A stretch of DNA of 64,000 nt from an uncultured Bacteroidales bacterium (GTDB lineage Bacteria; Bacteroidota; Bacteroidia; Bacteroidales; FEN-979): the NCBI GenBank assembly GCA_903926565.1, contig CAIYJU010000046.1:1-64000 (forward strand). Reading direction: 5' to 3'. Shown piece after piece: positions 33,652-41,133 of this stretch. The position numbers were made by a program, and so were the translations under genes. Numbering within the stretch: the first letter of the stretch is position 1; each line of letters starts with the position of its first letter. The notes under the pieces are model-generated. The model ran no database searches, had not been told where the DNA came from, and worked only from the letters and a program-made list of their open reading frames with translations.

Positions 33652-35292
33652 CTACTTAAATTGAACCATCTTTCCGGTTTCGACCCGGTCATTCACTGTC
33701 AAACGGTAAAAGTAAACACGGCTGGCGGATCGGGGCTGAACTAAACCATCACCAGGTTTAAACAGCACTTCAAAATAGCCGGGTGACCTGAATCCGCTGA
33801 CAGGTTCTGCAATTAAATTACCCAAAACATCAAAAACTTTCAGGGAGACAATACCCGGTGAAGCAATACGGAAGCCGATTTTTGTCTGTGACTGGAAAGG
33901 ATTGGGGTAACTCCTTGTCAATCCTCGTGAATTGGCCTGAATTTCCTGGTCATCCACACCCTCAAGATTTACAAAGTCAATGGGAACCGTCCATATCTGG
34001 TAAACGCCGCTCGAATTATCCATCCACACAGTCCATAGTTTTGAATCCGTTGAAGTGAGATCGATGATGTCGCCCTGGTAACCTTGCCCCAAACCGCCGA
34101 TCGGCTTTGGCTCAAAATGATGGTCACTGATTTCATACTCTTTCCAACTGTTGCCGCCGTCGGTGGAACGGGCAAGGAAAACACCTGTTGAGTCAGTGGT
34201 TGTCGTACGGTCATCATAAAAAATGATGTTCACCGCCCCGAACTTATCAACATGGATATTTGGAAAATACTGGGTCTTCCCGTTGTCTAACGCATCCTGG
34301 TTCACCCTGATGCCCTCCGACCATGTCAACCCGGCATCCGAAGAACGGTACATGACGATATCAGGATCTGAACCAGAAGGGGCATGATTTTTCTGGCCGG
34401 TCACAATATAAATCCACCCCCGTCTGGGGCCCTGAGTGGTATCAACCGCCATGCATGGCAGTCCGTTTACCCTGATGTTGTTTTTATTGGATAAGATCCC
34501 GGTGATGCCATTCATGCTGACGGCATTTTCGTTCACAATCCAGTCCATTCCCCCGTTTGAAGAGGAGGCAAACCCGGCAAGGATCTCTTTGAAAGGGGAA
34601 ACATCCGTCACCCCGGCCCAGCAAAGGTAAACTTCTCCGTTTGGTCCCATTGCCAGGTCACCTCCGGCACACCTGATCGTTGGATTATTCACCTGTTTTG
34701 GCACCGACCAGCTCTGGGCTCCGTTGATGGTATATGAAAACATCAGCGGAAATGGTGAGGCAAATTGCACCCAGGCAGCATACGATCTACCCCGGAAGGG
34801 ACTGGCAGCATTGGCATCAGTTGTTAATGAAGCCCTTTCCAGGTCATCGGTGGATATCACTTTCTGGGATGACCAGGTTTGCCCGTTATCATAAGAATAG
34901 TGAGAGTACAGGCCGACAAACGGGGCCCTGCCGAGGCGGGTAATGATAAATGTCCCGTTTTTATCAATCGTAATCCCCGGGTCCCCGCCATGAAACGCAA
35001 TGGGGGCCCCGGTACAGGTATCGTTTCCCCGCCATGAGGCACCGCCGTTGGTGGTTGTATAAATTCCTTCACTGATGAAAAATGGAAGAAAATTGATGGT
35101 ATTGCACCCGGCAAACAGGATGTTCTGGTCGAGCGGACTCTTTACCAGGAACACCTCGGTTTGCGCAATATTGCTGGGATAAATCCGGTAGTTACTGCCA
35201 ATTTTCAGGTTGGAACGATCCGGGTTATTCGTCTGAGCGGCCAGGTCAGAAAGTGTAAATAACCCGAGTGTCAACAGATACCAGCTTCTCAT
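33652..35292 (-). CDS. T9SS cargo: secreted sialidase-fold (BNR) protein
   Basis: 546 residues: a signal peptide (MRSWYLLTLGLFTLSDLAAQ), a propeller-like region with Asp-box motifs SSDAGLTW and STDGGNSW, and a C-terminal T9SS type A domain (SYPNPFQSQTKIGF ... VYFYRLTVNDRVETGKMVQF). It is a shorter paralog of the protein at 8279-11722; both share FYDDR, SxDGGNSW and SD..F.P.PI.GL stretches in the same order. No catalytic sialidase triad was identified. Its gene precedes the 35306 T9SS gene by 13 bp on the same strand, suggesting cotranscription. Confidence 0.85.
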   Translation of the reverse strand: MRSWYLLTLGLFTLSDLAAQTNNPDRSNLKIGSNYRIYPSNIAQTEVFLVKSPLDQNILFAGCNTINFLPFFISEGIYTTTNGGASWRGNDTCTGAPIAFHGGDPGITIDKNGTFIITRLGRAPFVGLYSHYSYDNGQTWSSQKVISTDDLERASLTTDANAASPFRGRSYAAWVQFASPFPLMFSYTINGAQSWSVPKQVNNPTIRCAGGDLAMGPNGEVYLCWAGVTDVSPFKEILAGFASSSNGGMDWIVNENAVSMNGITGILSNKNNIRVNGLPCMAVDTTQGPRRGWIYIVTGQKNHAPSGSDPDIVMYRSSDAGLTWSEGIRVNQDALDNGKTQYFPNIHVDKFGAVNIIFYDDRTTTTDSTGVFLARSTDGGNSWKEYEISDHHFEPKPIGGLGQGYQGDIIDLTSTDSKLWTVWMDNSSGVYQIWTVPIDFVNLEGVDDQEIQANSRGLTRSYPNPFQSQTKIGFRIASPGIVSLKVFDVLGNLIAEPVSGFRSPGYFEVLFKPGDGLVQPRSASRVYFYRLTVNDRVETGKMVQFK

Positions 35293-35305: not shown

Positions 35306-38248
35306 TTAACGACCCGGGAAAATTATTTTGCAAACCGCTGAAACACCTTGCTCTCCGGTCAACCTGATGCAGTAAATCCCTCCGGGAAAGATAGCATTTC
35401 CAGTCAATTCACTGAGCAGAAAAATCTGATCACCGGCATTCATCTGTTTTTGGAATCCGGCCATCAATCTGCCATGTGAATCCATAATATCCAGCCTCCA
35501 TTTTCCTGCAACCGGCAGGGTTAAACTGATCCTGCTTTCGTCGTTCGCCGGATTAGGAATGACCTGAATCGTTAAAGGCTTTTCATTTTTCGATATTCCA
35601 CCAATGTTAAAAAGAAAAACCAGGTGATGGTTGTTCGCATTGATCGCCGTATCGCTCAGCACTGGTGTGCCACCCATGTATGTTGCTGACCCGCTGAAGG
35701 TTCCGTATGGAACATGAAGGAATGTAAGCGAATCGTTCAAGATAGTACCGGAATACGGCCCTTCAGGACCCTGCATGATCACCTCTACATCGTTCATCAC
35801 CCACCCCAGGTTCGACACAGCCTGGCAAACCATGTCGGCTCTGTTGACCGTCAGGTTGAAATTCACGCCTGTTGTGGCCTGCCCGGAGATCACTGTTATA
35901 TTGGTATTGGACTGTGTTGTTGTGTAAGGATGCACCGCCGTAACTGTATAATTGCCGGCAGGAACAACCAGGTCGTAATTTCCCGACGCATCCGGATGGG
36001 TTGCATAACTTCCGGCCGAAACATCGGTAAGGGTCACATTGGCCGGTGCACCTGAGATGGTCACAAGCCCCTGGATGTTGCCGGTTCCGGCAACCGGTAC
36101 AAGCGTAAAATTCACATTGGGTGTTGTCTGGTTTACCACTACCGGAATACCGATGAGCATCTGGGTTGCATAGCCGCTGAGACTGGCCGTCACATCATAA
36201 TTCCCGGCCGGCAGGTCAAGTGTATAGAAACCGCTGGCATTGGGATTGGTTGTGGCAACTCCTCCACCTGCGCTGACCACGACCTGGGTCACAATTCCCG
36301 TTCCGCCGTTCAGCGTTACGGTTCCTGTCATCAGTCCGTTGGTTGGCGCCAGTACCAATGAAAGGTTGATGCCGGTCACTGTCTGCTGGTTTGCAACGGC
36401 AACATTGTAAACAGTATCCGGGATATAAGCCGCAAGCGAGGCGATCACATTAAAAGTTCCGGGGGTAACCTGGAGCGTATAGTGTCCGAACTGATCGGGA
36501 TGGGTGGTGCTGGTGCCGGCACTGACCAGGACATTGGTCATAATCCCGAATCCGCCGACCAGCGATACAGTGCCCTGGATATATCCTGCCGGCACAGGAA
36601 TCAGGGTAAGATTTACTGTGGTGGTCTGATTGATGGTTACAACCACATTGGGTTGTGATGCACCAATATACCCGGCAAGGCTCGCCGTTACAGTATAGGT
36701 TCCTGTCACGACATTCATTGAATAGTGCCCGGTTGCATCGGGATTTGTTGTGGTGGATCCGGCCTGTACGACTACCTGGGTTACATTGCCTGTTCCTCCG
36801 TTCAGGGTGATGGTGCCTGAGATCGTTCCGGAAAAAGCCGGGCCAAGGCTGCCATCCAGCTGGATGTTTTGTGCATAAATATCGGTGTTGCCGTTCCGCG
36901 TGTCCTCCCATGCAGCAATCCACTGGTTGTTTCCGAATTCGCTGACAACCGGGTGTATCTTCTGTGAAGAGATGGTGCAGATATCTTTTTGTGCCGGTGT
37001 CCACAACATGGTGCCTGAGGGTGAAATGCGCATGGCTTTGATCATCCCGTCTATGGCATTTGAATATTCCTCGTAAATAAGGACCATGTCGGTCGGACTG
37101 TTCCTGGCTTCATAAGGATAAACATCCGTGGTTGAAACAGGGATGAAAATCATCCCGCCCCCACCCCACTGAACCGCTCCTGCGGCATTGATTTTCTGCC
37201 CGAAGATCCCCCACTGGCTTTGCAAAGCGTTCATCTCATTCCAGTAAACGAATACGTCGGCTGACCCGGGAGGAAGGGCAAGTTGCGGATAATAGTGATT
37301 CATGCTGGAAAGATTGGAGGCCTCAACACCGTTGGAAGGATAGAGAACCGCCCCGGCATTGCTGATGTGCTGAACAAAAGTACTGGCCCGCTGGTTGTTG
37401 TCGCGGTCGTCGTGCCAGGCAATATAAAAGCCATCAGAACCATCATTGATAAACGGAAAAATCTGGGTCCATGCCGAAATTCCGCCGGCAAGGGAGACTG
37501 CTGCAGCATTTGCCCATACCGCTGTGCCTGTTGAGCTGTATCGCTGGGCATAAACATGCCGGGTAGGTGCATTGGGAGGGCCGCTGTCATCAAAATACTT
37601 CAGAATCACATCATCCGTGCCAACCGGCATGAGTTGTGGCCATGACAGACTGTTGGGCGATGAAAGCGTGATCCCTGCCGCTCCCCACTGGAGAATACCG
37701 GCAGGATTAACCTTCTGAAGGATGATGACATCGTCGGCCTGCCAGGAAAAAACAATATTACCGGCAACTGTTGAGACTACTTTCGGCGCAACATTGAAAG
37801 CTGTACTGTTTGACAGCATGATGCCGTTGGCCCCCCATACAAAACTTCCCGATGGAGATATCCGATACCCAACCACATTGGTACTCCCTGTCCGGATGTC
37901 ATTAAAGGCCAGGATGGCGTGGTTTGCCGCATCGCAGGTCATGTCCCAGTCGGTGAGCCAGGTCTCCTGCTGATTTGCGCTGATCAGGATTCCATCGGGC
38001 GCCCAGAGAATGTTTCCAAGCGGGTCAAGCCGCTGAAGCCTTACATTGTAATTGCCTCCTTCATTGGAAAAATAACCAATGTAGGTATCACCGTTCGGAC
38101 AGGTTGCGATTTTCGGAATCGCCTGCTCTCCTGATAAATTACAGATAACATTATTGACTGCTGGATTGGTGCTCCACTGCGAAAAACCGGTAAAGGATGA
38201 CAGGAAAAAAATACATGCGAGGAAATAGAGTAAACGGGAAGTTTTCAT
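35306..38248 (-). CDS. T9SS cargo with four CarboxypepD_reg-like repeats
   Basis: About 980 residues from the ATG at 38248, which starts the signal peptide MKTSRLLYFLACIFFLSSFT. The ATG at 38290 would add 14 residues and lies nine bases from a -7 element. The N-terminal ~470 residues are beta-rich and repeat-like (several W-containing blades). Four roughly 80-residue carboxypeptidase-regulatory-like repeats follow (for example GTITLNGGTGNVTQVVVQAG, DATGHYSMNVVTGTYTVTAS). A C-terminal T9SS domain (VIPNPANDESRISLTL ... GGIYCIRLTGEQG) follows. A surface or extracellular binding role is inferred. It is cotranscribed with the 33652 gene. Confidence 0.82.
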   Translation of the reverse strand: MKTSRLLYFLACIFFLSSFTGFSQWSTNPAVNNVICNLSGEQAIPKIATCPNGDTYIGYFSNEGGNYNVRLQRLDPLGNILWAPDGILISANQQETWLTDWDMTCDAANHAILAFNDIRTGSTNVVGYRISPSGSFVWGANGIMLSNSTAFNVAPKVVSTVAGNIVFSWQADDVIILQKVNPAGILQWGAAGITLSSPNSLSWPQLMPVGTDDVILKYFDDSGPPNAPTRHVYAQRYSSTGTAVWANAAAVSLAGGISAWTQIFPFINDGSDGFYIAWHDDRDNNQRASTFVQHISNAGAVLYPSNGVEASNLSSMNHYYPQLALPPGSADVFVYWNEMNALQSQWGIFGQKINAAGAVQWGGGGMIFIPVSTTDVYPYEARNSPTDMVLIYEEYSNAIDGMIKAMRISPSGTMLWTPAQKDICTISSQKIHPVVSEFGNNQWIAAWEDTRNGNTDIYAQNIQLDGSLGPAFSGTISGTITLNGGTGNVTQVVVQAGSTTTNPDATGHYSMNVVTGTYTVTASLAGYIGASQPNVVVTINQTTTVNLTLIPVPAGYIQGTVSLVGGFGIMTNVLVSAGTSTTHPDQFGHYTLQVTPGTFNVIASLAAYIPDTVYNVAVANQQTVTGINLSLVLAPTNGLMTGTVTLNGGTGIVTQVVVSAGGGVATTNPNASGFYTLDLPAGNYDVTASLSGYATQMLIGIPVVVNQTTPNVNFTLVPVAGTGNIQGLVTISGAPANVTLTDVSAGSYATHPDASGNYDLVVPAGNYTVTAVHPYTTTQSNTNITVISGQATTGVNFNLTVNRADMVCQAVSNLGWVMNDVEVIMQGPEGPYSGTILNDSLTFLHVPYGTFSGSATYMGGTPVLSDTAINANNHHLVFLFNIGGISKNEKPLTIQVIPNPANDESRISLTLPVAGKWRLDIMDSHGRLMAGFQKQMNAGDQIFLLSELTGNAIFPGGIYCIRLTGEQGVSAVCKIIFPGR

Positions 38249-38298
38249 GAGGAACTGTCTTTGAATGAGGAATTTTGATACGTTTTTCATATCTCAGA

Positions 38299-38365: not shown

Positions 38366-40183
38366 TCATGGTTTTTTTTCCGATGGGATGATCAGGTGAA
38401 TCCCGAATGAAGCCATTTTTTTCGCCTTTTCTCCCTGCTGAAAATTATCGGCATACATCGCTTCAAGCACAACCGTATGTTGGATGGGAAGAGCGACCTG
38501 GGCATAGAAGCCTTCGCAATAGCCGACAACCGCCTTGGTTCCGTCCGTCTTTCCAAAGCCACTTCCAATTCCTGCCTTAAACATTGGATATGGCGCTGAT
38601 GAAGGAAACAATCCTGGAAAACTGCCTTCTGCAAACAAAATGTCTGGTGGTCCTAACCGGAGACTGACTGAAGGGAAGAAATAGATGTTGTTATAGTCGC
38701 TGGTAATGAGGTCTCCAACATTATAAAGATCTTCATTCCTGCCGCCGCCGATGGGCATCTTCATCTGACCAACAGAAATACCGGCACCAAAGCCAATGTA
38801 ATACCAGTTCATTGATATATAGGGACTTACTCCGATTGTTAAGCCGGAATGAGGATAAGCTGTGGTGTATTCTCCTGATTCAGACCCCAGGAATGCTCTT
38901 GCACCAAGTGACATCTTGCGGTACTTCCCCGTCCATTTATTGTAGGAAACATCGAGTCCGCCCTGCCACAGGCTCCGTTTCGACGGTCCAAGGTCGGTAA
39001 ATTTATTGTTTGAACATCCACTGCCAGAGTTGACGGTTACCCTTGAAACATTTTCATAATAGCTGCCAACCAGCCCGATCAGGCCTACATCGGTAAAGAT
39101 TACAGGTTCATCACCCTTTGGTTCAGTGTTGCTCTTTTGCGACATAAAAGCAATGCAACATACCAGGATACCCGGCAAAGCCCATCTGGCCCCGGTTGTT
39201 GAGTGATTACGATAAATTTCAGCAAGCAGCAGGATCACAAACGGTATGTAAAACAACACGATGGTGGAGAATTCGATGACATCAAACCAGTTTCGCCCTA
39301 GGATGATCACCACGCCCAGGAGAGATGTCAGGATAACTTTACGGAATTCTGTCACCCTGGCCGGCAGGCTTTTCGCTGTTTCTGCCTTTGCTTTCAACTC
39401 CCTTAAAATCAATACGATCAGGCCAGGAAAAAAGGTCATCACAACAATCCATTGAACCAGGTTCATTCCCCATAAAAGTTCACCGGCAAATGAGTTTGAC
39501 GCAGGATCCACCAGGAATTCAGTCATAAAACGCAGGAATCCATAGCATAACATCGAAAAAAGGAACATGCTTCCGCCTGATCGCCAGGAATTCCTTGTAC
39601 GCCATACCACAAAAGCTATCAGAAGGCAACCGATCAACTGGTACAGTTGAACCGGATGGATGGCAAGCGTACCGTGCTCATGGATGCCGATCAAACCCTT
39701 AGCCAGTTGCGAATGAAATACCATGGATCCGGCATCATACTTTATCCCGACAGGAAGAGTGGTCGGAATTCCGAAACAACATCCTGCCATCAGGCACCCG
39801 ACCCGCGAAATAGCCAGTGCCACAGGCAATGCGATTGCAAGGTTATCAAAAACAGGCCTGTTAAACCTGAGGAACTGCCTGGCAAGAAAGATCCCGGCAA
39901 GCAGTCCGATGACACCCCCCAACGCGTTTTTTTCATCTGCAACCGGAAACCGGAATTCGGTAAACACCGTATGCCATTGAAAAGAAGTATAGGTGACAAT
40001 TTTATCTCCGAGGATGAAAAACACCACGCCGGTAATGAGTATCAGGAGCCAGCTGCTTAAGGGATACCCATTTTTCAGCCCCTGGAAGATCATAATGCCG
40101 GCCGCCGTTAAAAATGCTGCCAGGTAAGCCAGGGAAAAAAAGAGGCCGGCATGCCCTGTGTCAAGAATCATCAGTGGTTTCAT
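38366..40183 (-). CDS. Lgt-family membrane domain fused to a C-terminal beta-rich domain
   Basis: 605 residues. Residues 1-265 form a polytopic domain related to prolipoprotein diacylglyceryl transferase: HPVQLYQL near 176, FLRFMTEFL near 217 and ISRVGCLMAGCCFG near 126. The last replaces the usual GRxGNFxNxE-type motif, so it is a divergent paralog, not a standard Lgt. Three further hydrophobic segments (about 281-347) follow. From about 350 to 605 the chain is beta-rich and Gly/Tyr-rich with aromatic alternation (GLTIGVSPYISMNWYYIGFG), resembling a small outer-membrane-type barrel or beta-propeller segment. The ATG overlaps the stop of the FolD-like gene (ATGA at 40180-40183). The combined architecture is unusual. 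Confidence 0.7.
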   Translation of the reverse strand: MKPLMILDTGHAGLFFSLAYLAAFLTAAGIMIFQGLKNGYPLSSWLLILITGVVFFILGDKIVTYTSFQWHTVFTEFRFPVADEKNALGGVIGLLAGIFLARQFLRFNRPVFDNLAIALPVALAISRVGCLMAGCCFGIPTTLPVGIKYDAGSMVFHSQLAKGLIGIHEHGTLAIHPVQLYQLIGCLLIAFVVWRTRNSWRSGGSMFLFSMLCYGFLRFMTEFLVDPASNSFAGELLWGMNLVQWIVVMTFFPGLIVLILRELKAKAETAKSLPARVTEFRKVILTSLLGVVIILGRNWFDVIEFSTIVLFYIPFVILLLAEIYRNHSTTGARWALPGILVCCIAFMSQKSNTEPKGDEPVIFTDVGLIGLVGSYYENVSRVTVNSGSGCSNNKFTDLGPSKRSLWQGGLDVSYNKWTGKYRKMSLGARAFLGSESGEYTTAYPHSGLTIGVSPYISMNWYYIGFGAGISVGQMKMPIGGGRNEDLYNVGDLITSDYNNIYFFPSVSLRLGPPDILFAEGSFPGLFPSSAPYPMFKAGIGSGFGKTDGTKAVVGYCEGFYAQVALPIQHTVVLEAMYADNFQQGEKAKKMASFGIHLIIPSEKKP

Positions 40184-41133
40184 GATAAAGCTATTTTTTG
40201 TGGTTTCAGCATACTCAATTCATTTTTAAAGGCTATTACGGTATTCCTGAACAGGATGGCCATGACAACGGTCATCAGCCCGCCGGGAATCGGAAGAATG
40301 GCGCTTGCAATATTATCCGCCACACCAACACTCACGCCTCCCCTGATTACCGGAACCAGTTTTTCAGGATCTGCCTTTGACGGGACCTCTTTAACCAGGT
40401 TGGAATAGATATCGATGATGCAAACACCCGGCTTCAGCCACTCAGGTTGAATATATTCAGGGATTTTCGTCACCACAACCAGGAAATCTGCTCTTTTACA
40501 GTGCTCCACCATGTGTTTGGAATCCTTGTTGACGAAGGTTGCAGCACAATCGTTAGGTACCACGCGCGAAGCAGCGGCCCTGACGATCATTTTTGTCAGC
40601 GTGTTTGAGAAGAATCCGTCGTCAACCAGGAACACCCACTCCTGGTCTTTTACAGGTTGAACACCTGCTTCGCTGAACATTTCAAACAGGGCTTCAGGCA
40701 AGCACATCGGATACCTTTCTGCCCTGATATCGGGAACCATCGTTGCCATCATGTTTACCGGGTGAAATCCTTCCACCTCTTTGACAGGATCGATCATATT
40801 CACAATCCTCACCGGGTTTAACTGCTCGGGCAATGGCTGCAGCAACACAATTGCATGGATGTTCCTGTCTGAATTCAGCCGGTCAATCACTTCAAACACC
40901 TCCTCTTCCCTGGCATCATTTGACAGGATTTCGGTAAAAACCTGGAAGCCCATGTTCTGAGCCATGTGAATATGCAGCGGGATGTTATATTTAGCCAGTG
41001 GTGTGCAATTAAAGCCGACAAACGCAATCCCGGGGATTTGCTGATATTTTTCCAGCAATCTGCTCACTTCATTTTTTACTTCGCCGAAGATCTTATCCTT
41101 GACAAAATCTCCCTTGATGATTTTTGTTTCCAT
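40180..41133 (-). CDS. FolD-like paralog lacking the catalytic lysine
   Basis: 317 residues related to methylenetetrahydrofolate dehydrogenase/cyclohydrolase by overall order and the conserved stretch IDPVKEVEGFHPVNMM. Key active-site features differ. The YVxxKxK helix reads AKYNIPLHIHMAQNMGF, so the proton-relay Lys is replaced (Leu or His). The GRSxIVGKP nucleotide loop reads VDDGFFSNTLTK, and PGGVGPMT reads PGGLMTVVM. It is therefore likely inactive as classical FolD or has a changed reaction. It is the first gene of a two-gene unit with the Lgt-like fusion, overlapping by 4 bp. Confidence 0.65.
   Translation of the reverse strand: METKIIKGDFVKDKIFGEVKNEVSRLLEKYQQIPGIAFVGFNCTPLAKYNIPLHIHMAQNMGFQVFTEILSNDAREEEVFEVIDRLNSDRNIHAIVLLQPLPEQLNPVRIVNMIDPVKEVEGFHPVNMMATMVPDIRAERYPMCLPEALFEMFSEAGVQPVKDQEWVFLVDDGFFSNTLTKMIVRAAASRVVPNDCAATFVNKDSKHMVEHCKRADFLVVVTKIPEYIQPEWLKPGVCIIDIYSNLVKEVPSKADPEKLVPVIRGGVSVGVADNIASAILPIPGGLMTVVMAILFRNTVIAFKNELSMLKPQKIALS

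Follow-up and report, generated by a model that had tools for sequence, protein, structure and literature searches.

Introduction

FbcH of Bradyrhizobium is a cytochrome b/c1 precursor that is split by signal peptidase, with both products staying at the inner membrane. We know of no case in which one precursor comprises a lipid enzyme of the inner membrane together with an outer-membrane barrel and its parts are sorted to the two membranes; in one study, lipidation is reportedly coupled to a secretion system.

The enzyme closest to the gene described here is prolipoprotein diacylglyceryl transferase (Lgt; PF01790, structure 5azb). For E. coli Lgt, the available sections of PMC13251419 give Y26, H103, R143, N146, G154 and R239 as the catalytic set and count E151 among the non-essential residues, and those of PMC4728403 list Y26A/F/Q, H103A/N/Q/R/Y, E151A/Q and R143A/E/K as inactive mutants. 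Lgt is often duplicated, with two copies in about 1,300 genomes, and second copies occur on plasmids that also encode lipoproteins; in distant Lgts, N146 and E151 are exchanged for C or C/D and H103 for Y, W or F, and an E. coli depletion strain is rescued in part by the L. interrogans Lgt (N146C) (all in the available sections of PMC13251419). In Bacteroidetes, most signal peptidase I substrates carry Gln directly after the cut, a regularity termed the Q-rule in the available sections of PMC5837995. Here, we compare with these systems a gene that joins a divergent Lgt to a predicted outer-membrane barrel.

The fusion gene

The window, that is, the whole analysed stretch of 64,000 nucleotides, contains on its minus strand an open reading frame of 605 aa that starts with ATG and has no internal stops. 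This ATG overlaps the stop codon of a folD-like gene as ATGA. The features referred to below are (window coordinates, strand, description):

40180..41133, minus: folD-like gene, directly upstream of the fusion gene
38366..40183, minus: fusion gene, 605 aa, consisting of an Lgt-like half, three extra helices and a barrel half
39389..40183, minus: seven-helix Lgt-fold half, residues 1-265 (PF01790, Foldseek, VIA-align)
39770..39805, minus: RVGCLMAGCCFG, residues 127-138, with C130, C135 and C136 at canonical N146, E151 and the next residue
39203..39349, minus: TM8 and TM9, residues 279-327 (AlphaFold2 model, positive-inside pattern)
39140..39187, minus: TM10 with the preceding Arg, residues 333-348, an outward-pointing helix resembling an internal signal peptide
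39137..39142, minus: S348-Q349, predicted signal peptidase I cut before Q349 (small residue-Q in 18/18 fusions, Q-rule)
38369..39139, minus: predicted 12-stranded outer-membrane barrel, residues 349-605 (AlphaFold2, VIA-align)
39014..39016, minus: C390, an invariant Cys (18/18) in the predicted first extracellular loop of the barrel
38387..38410, minus: C-terminal strand SFGIHLII, residues 592-599; many relatives have GxxYRF or a similar ending here

An AlphaFold2 model of the whole chain, built from 19 rows (mean pLDDT 61.5, pTM 0.52), contains helices at residues 12-37, 42-62, 87-105, 110-133, 178-195, 205-224, 242-264, 279-295, 302-327 and 335-347, followed by strands from 361 to 597 at low confidence. 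The last three helices correspond to those that the initial annotation had placed behind an Lgt-like N-terminus, the motifs of which, HPVQLY (from residue 176) and FLRFMTEF (216-223), are present as described. That annotation had further proposed that an inner-membrane Lgt fold and a barrel-like domain form a new architecture. The combination proved to be one real gene and to be conserved; it contains no frameshift, and the models show no accessory domain of ordinary Lgt. Among the literature matches listed (titles and abstracts, with subscription journals thinly covered), there was no description of an Lgt with an outer-membrane barrel or of such a two-membrane precursor and, judged from these matches, the Lgt-barrel fusion is new.

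Distribution

The same fusion, for which a search in other Bacteroidetes had been suggested, is carried by 17 relatives (14 complete) in 16 other genomes, and its junction was found in at least nine numbered families, that of the window included. A DNA-pattern search yielded the full-length fusions L010-L013 (50-57% identity) in named metagenome-assembled genomes and, more distantly, L015-L017; of these three, L015 is broken as well as truncated, and L016 is short. In a search with a profile of the barrel half (A3), nine of 393 genomes of the order, including the window's own, were matched; seven of the other eight hold eight fused frames of 527-630 aa, one of them ended by a contig edge, and G765 holds a fragment only. 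With a second profile (A4), eight of 395 genomes of the class were matched, again including the own genome, and fusions were found in G1139 (593 aa) and G226 (641 aa). Five weak A4 matches (L166-L170, E 0.001-0.005) were not counted; in the two of these loci that were read, L166 and L168, no open reading frame with the Cys motif was found. A search of a phylum sample with the single barrel sequence returned the own genome only (1/395), a result too insensitive to indicate absence, because the later profile found G226, a genome that an equal phylum sample contains. In the sample of the own family, the full fusion is present in 5 of 43 genomes, the own included, and this patchiness counts against the precursor reading proposed below. 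The own genome also holds a decayed second copy (L027, G000:C28:16803-17852), with both halves in pieces and in different frames and the TM9-TM10 stretch gone.

Because another 17 sequences, of which 14 are complete, show the same architecture, we ruled out chance, a frameshift or an assembly artefact as the origin of the reading frame. There is accordingly hardly any probability left for an error of sequencing or assembly that would have united two genes, or for the barrel being made from an internal start. The named relatives L010-L013 and L015-L017 are all metagenome-assembled, and nine codons in the stretch 256-346 (GTG or TTG) could serve as starts; against this stand the recurrence of the junction in at least nine families, the lack of any stand-alone barrel among the matches read, the absence of ATG between residues 250 and 346, and the genome G226, which consists of 4 contigs at 100% completeness and whose fusion therefore disfavours an assembly error.

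The alignment statements below refer to 18 fusions, window gene included. Three of these are incomplete: L015 has its N-terminal part in a separate frame and its C-terminal part lost at the contig end, L150 has lost its N-terminus at the contig end, and L016 has a short barrel half. The decayed copies (G000:C28, L033/L051 of G026), the fragments L014, L034, L142 and L148 of G765, and a barrel-less paralog in L013 were left out. This paralog (L013:10553-11617) is a second Cys-type Lgt of 355 aa, located 2 kb from the full fusion.

The Lgt-like half

Residues 16-259 match the Pfam family LGT (PF01790) with an E-value of 9.5e-21 and 74.7 bits at a cut-off of 24.9, in line with the resemblance noted at the outset. 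The best structural match of this half is 5azb, both in Foldseek (E 1.8e-5) and in VIA-align (Z 17.0, rmsd 4.2, 249 residues aligned). The equivalog cut-off of TIGR00544 (118.9 bits) was missed, with 30.3 bits for the protein and 31.3 bits in the genome search. In an alignment with 40 other Lgt rows, the window gene shares R143, G154, R239 and E243 with Lgt in addition to the seven-helix fold, but differs by Y26F, G27S, H103L, N146C, E151C and R246V, and by the three added helices and the barrel. Of the six catalytic residues of the E. coli enzyme, R143, G154 and R239 are thus present, and Y26, H103 and N146 are changed. R239, G154 and the Cys triad (C130, C135, C136) are fixed in all 18 fusions, and R143 is replaced in four (by N, P, K and C). 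As an ordinary Lgt (232 bits) is encoded at G000:C175 in the same genome, the Lgt of the fusion is a second copy.

The substitution of the usual Gly-Arg/Asn motif by RVGCLMAGCCFG, on which the initial annotation had remarked, is present, but it fails as a mark of novelty, being a published, common Lgt variant. Cys at 146 and 151, which defines a Cys-type subgroup of Lgt, occurs in the window gene and the 17 other fusions, and the pattern GC-x3-GCC-x-G is also found in stand-alone Lgts of Acidobacteria, Myxococcota, Bdellovibrionota, Pirellulales and Bacteroidota. In two such loci, L022 and L023, lspA (PF01252) lies directly before or overlaps the Lgt gene. Of 21 genomes searched, four (G468-G471, for which completeness is not given and two of which have only 1.2 Mb) have a Cys-type gene as their sole PF01790 match. 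The motif was considered as a new active site and rejected on the grounds of these stand-alone C146/C151 Lgts, some of them the sole PF01790 match, and of the published N146C/E151C variants (available sections of PMC13251419); it marks this published kind of Lgt and is not new. The stand-alone proteins that were read, such as L023 behind lspA, share GC-x3-GCC-x-G with the fusion, but mostly have about 250-320 aa and lack the barrel, and they keep Y26 in 14 of 16 rows, whereas the window gene has Y26F. A tree of 36 rows places the fusions in a clade of nine, with the barrel-less L013 paralog among them, which forms one side of a branch with support values of 100/99; the 12 ordinary N/E Lgts fall outside of this clade.

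Judging from its residues, the half may either lipidate special substrates by an altered chemistry or do other lipid work. Since second lgt copies on plasmids accompany lipoprotein genes (available sections of PMC13251419), a dedicated Lgt is, by analogy, a reasonable guess.

Further unusual Lgt genes were encountered in the searches. A 625-aa open reading frame (L116:6718-8592, G459:C302) combines a PEMT/ICMT-like methyltransferase (46-138) with a C-terminal LGT part (413-579) and is another Lgt fusion. In a gene of Pirellulales (L120:3542-4837 / L026, G471:C204), the sole PF01790 match of its genome, a PDZ domain lies between the signature and HPxQxY motifs, in the periplasmic head. G455 (L117:2647-3807, G455:C169) and G457 (C36), two genomes that also carry the fusion, each have a third Lgt-like gene, which at 387-397 aa exceeds ordinary Lgt in length.

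The barrel half

When modelled alone (7 rows), the last 258 residues formed 12 strands with a pLDDT of 65.1 and a pTM of 0.62; parts of the model lie below pLDDT 50, and the modest AlphaFold2 confidence, of this model as of the whole-chain one, counts against the precursor reading proposed below. The seven Foldseek matches with E < 0.001 are outer-membrane channels, OmpA or porins. In VIA-align, which compares only with the folds in its list, the NalP translocator 1uyn ranked first (Z 17.2, rmsd 3.4, 194 residues aligned), followed by BrkA (17.0), Hbp (16.1), EspP (16.1), FapF (15.5) and KdgM (15.4), all of which we take to be 12-stranded barrels. The longer loops are mostly on the predicted outward side. 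The model thus agrees with the outer-membrane-like beta pattern that had been read from the C-terminus, and predicts a 12-stranded outer-membrane barrel.

A C-terminal strand of what we take to be the BAM-type consensus, often ending in YRF, was recognized in 13 of the 18 fusions by two loose patterns and by reading (with L015 cut off, L016 short, and L151, L164 and L165 ambiguous). The strand of the window gene, SFGIHLII, has aliphatic residues in place of the aromatic ones.

Pfam gave no match for the barrels of the window gene, L012 and L017; within the barrels of L010 and L011, Choline_bind_2 and MreC matched, but below threshold. That Pfam offers no known barrel family counts against the precursor reading. 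Assignment to a known barrel family was rejected, as no Pfam family matched and a profile search of PDB sequences gave weak hits only (E 0.066 and 0.077, serine proteases). The modelled half resembles 12-stranded barrels in fold (NalP, BrkA and EspP, and the porins KdgM and NanC; Z 13-17), but sequence identity to them is 7-12%, and, unlike them, it has an invariant Cys in loop 1 and is made as the tail of an inner-membrane protein.

This residue, C390, occupies one alignment column in all 18 fusions, at position 37-58 of the mature part, and lies between strands 1 and 2 of the barrel model. It is the sole Cys of the mature part in six fusions (L015, which is truncated, L144, L145, L150, L164 and L165), so there is no conserved disulfide partner inside the barrel. 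C390 could possibly be modified in cis by the adjoining Lgt-like enzyme with its three invariant Cys. That a freed barrel reaches the outer membrane with a modified loop-1 Cys, which would amount to lipidation in cis of an internal Cys by a path other than the lipobox/signal peptidase II route, we regard as a long shot.

Extra helices and junction

The loops on the inside, including the one before TM10, contain 0.19-0.34 K+R per residue, and the outside loops of the membrane part 0.01-0.11. The stretch right after TM10, at 0.205, is untypical of an outside segment and counts against a cut. From the last K/R to Q349 there are 15 residues, a spacing shared by 14 of the 18 fusions overall (range 12-22); the same distance is 12-25 (median 17) in 44 control signal peptides with Q at +1, drawn from 496 open reading frames of the own and related genomes, which were pre-selected by A/G/S at -1 and a spacing of 11-25 and hence cannot test these two features.

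Q349 itself is invariant in 18/18 fusions, and the residue before it is S in eight, A in five and G in five, both of which argue for a cut. Among columns filled in at least 16 rows, it is the only invariant one from 246 to 389, and the median pairwise identity is about 21% for TM8-10 and likewise for the barrel (17 rows, without L015). The decayed copy L033, outside the 18, still has FMAQ, and the barrel-less L013 paralog keeps TM8-9 and stops where TM10 would start; both observations favour a cut, and the latter is as if TM10 belonged to the barrel module. Position -3 is occupied by F in nine fusions, the window gene among them, by L in seven, and by I and T in one each; Phe at this position occurs in none of the 44 controls and counts against a cut.

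All 18 fusions show the features of the Q-rule: a small residue at -1, Q at +1, and a hydrophobic stretch behind K/R. TM10 ends, like the signal peptidase I substrates described in the available sections of PMC5837995, with a small residue and Gln after an outward hydrophobic helix, but in the fusion the signal is inside the chain, as its helix 10 instead of the N-terminus, and half of the sequences have Phe at -3. On account of the K/R pattern, the K/R-Q spacing and the small residue-Q end, TM10 matches a signal peptide in orientation, length and ending and looks like an internal one. This signal-peptidase-like junction, which is absent from the initial annotation, is likely the key feature of the fusion. 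A lipoprotein signal at TM10, by which the enzyme would act on its own tail through the ordinary route, was discarded: a lipobox-like Cys is found at the end of TM10 in 2 of the 18 fusions only (LIGC in L011, MLAC in L013), the window gene having none.

Between the end of the TM10 helix (347) and the first strand, which starts at 361 in the model of the full chain and at 360 in that of the barrel, there are about 13 residues, which span at most about 45 Å. The periplasm is about 200 Å wide. As the linker is far shorter than that, an uncut chain cannot occupy both membranes and, with ten helices holding it in the inner membrane, the barrel either is cut free or lies elsewhere than in the outer membrane. 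We favour the former because of the barrel features and the invariant small residue-Q pair.

Neighbouring genes

A Peptidase_C92 (YiiX) gene was found with one phmmer query in 3 of 16 fusion neighbourhoods, which differ in length and do not include L164 and L165; in L011 and L155 it lies beside the fusion itself, in L013 (11611-12261) beside the paralog that lacks the barrel. We consider it a lead only for a partner of the fusion. In L011 and L013, a Fib_succ_major (PF09603) domain lies behind the barrel within one chain, and in L010 the next gene encodes it, but as this domain is common in these genomes (26 matches in G000, 16 in G455, 77 in G456, 17 in G457 and 40 in G458), the association may be chance. 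The 77 matches of G456, the genome of L011, are very many compared with 16-40 in the other four. L010 and L012 have in common a 130-aa lipoprotein-like gene (62% identity), which was not found in G000 in a search run without a positive control.

Downstream of the fusion, on the same strand, the window encodes two large proteins (35306-38290 and 33652-35292) with Por_Secre_tail matches below the Pfam cut-off; they are possible type IX secretion cargo.

Discussion

We consider it probable, at roughly 0.64, that the gene encodes a precursor of two membrane proteins, which is cut by signal peptidase I after export and the parts of which are sorted to two membranes. The N-terminal half, as a second, divergent Cys-type Lgt, would remain in the inner membrane, and helices 8-10 would return the chain and let the barrel half come out on the periplasmic side. 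TM10 would act as an internal signal peptide, with signal peptidase I cutting between S348 and Q349, and the freed barrel (Q349-P605) would proceed to the outer membrane as a 12-stranded barrel. Like FbcH, this would be one chain yielding two proteins by way of an internal signal peptide, with the difference that one product would leave for the outer membrane. A single chain for both halves would couple their production, which suggests that the Lgt half and the barrel contribute to a common process, perhaps one that lipidates or delivers certain surface proteins. Whereas the fusion with its conservation, the Lgt fold, the barrel-like model and the invariant [A/S/G]-Q come out of the sequences and models, we infer the cut, the outer-membrane location and, above all, such a joint function.

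The chain might instead stay uncut, with TM10 as a true membrane anchor and the beta half as a periplasmic domain working with the Lgt half. The Phe at -3 in 9 of 18 fusions, the K/R just after TM10 and the modest confidence of the models would agree with this, but TM10 is short (335-347 in the model, at low confidence), Q and the small residue before it are invariant without an obvious structural reason, and the beta half resembles a 12-strand outer-membrane barrel, with a BAM-type C-terminal strand in 13 of 18; we therefore deem an uncut chain unlikely. A variant to which we assign a better, if still less than even, chance is that the cut occurs but the Lgt half no longer transfers diacylglyceryl to lipoproteins, serving some other lipid transfer or scrambling, or mainly as carrier of the barrel. 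As this overlaps with the precursor reading, the odds of the two need not sum to 1. Six changes in the window gene (Y26F, G27S, H103L, N146C, E151C, R246V), the replacement of R143, essential in E. coli, in 4 of 18 fusions that never change their three Cys, and the ordinary Lgt in G000 speak for a loss of the original activity; the fixation of R239, G154 and the cysteines in 18/18, the C146/C151 Lgts that are the sole PF01790 match in 4 of 21 genomes, and the partial restoration of the E. coli depletion strain by the N146C Lgt of L. interrogans (available sections of PMC13251419) speak against it.

For the Lgt family, the fusion links a divergent member to a definite outer-membrane partner, which makes the role of such a paralog testable, and it is an example of how an Lgt family match alone hides a second protein. 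Should the cut prove real, a single precursor would give rise to a lipid enzyme of the inner membrane and a barrel of the outer membrane, with the halves sorted to two membranes, and a multi-spanning inner-membrane protein would be the carrier of a barrel into the periplasm.
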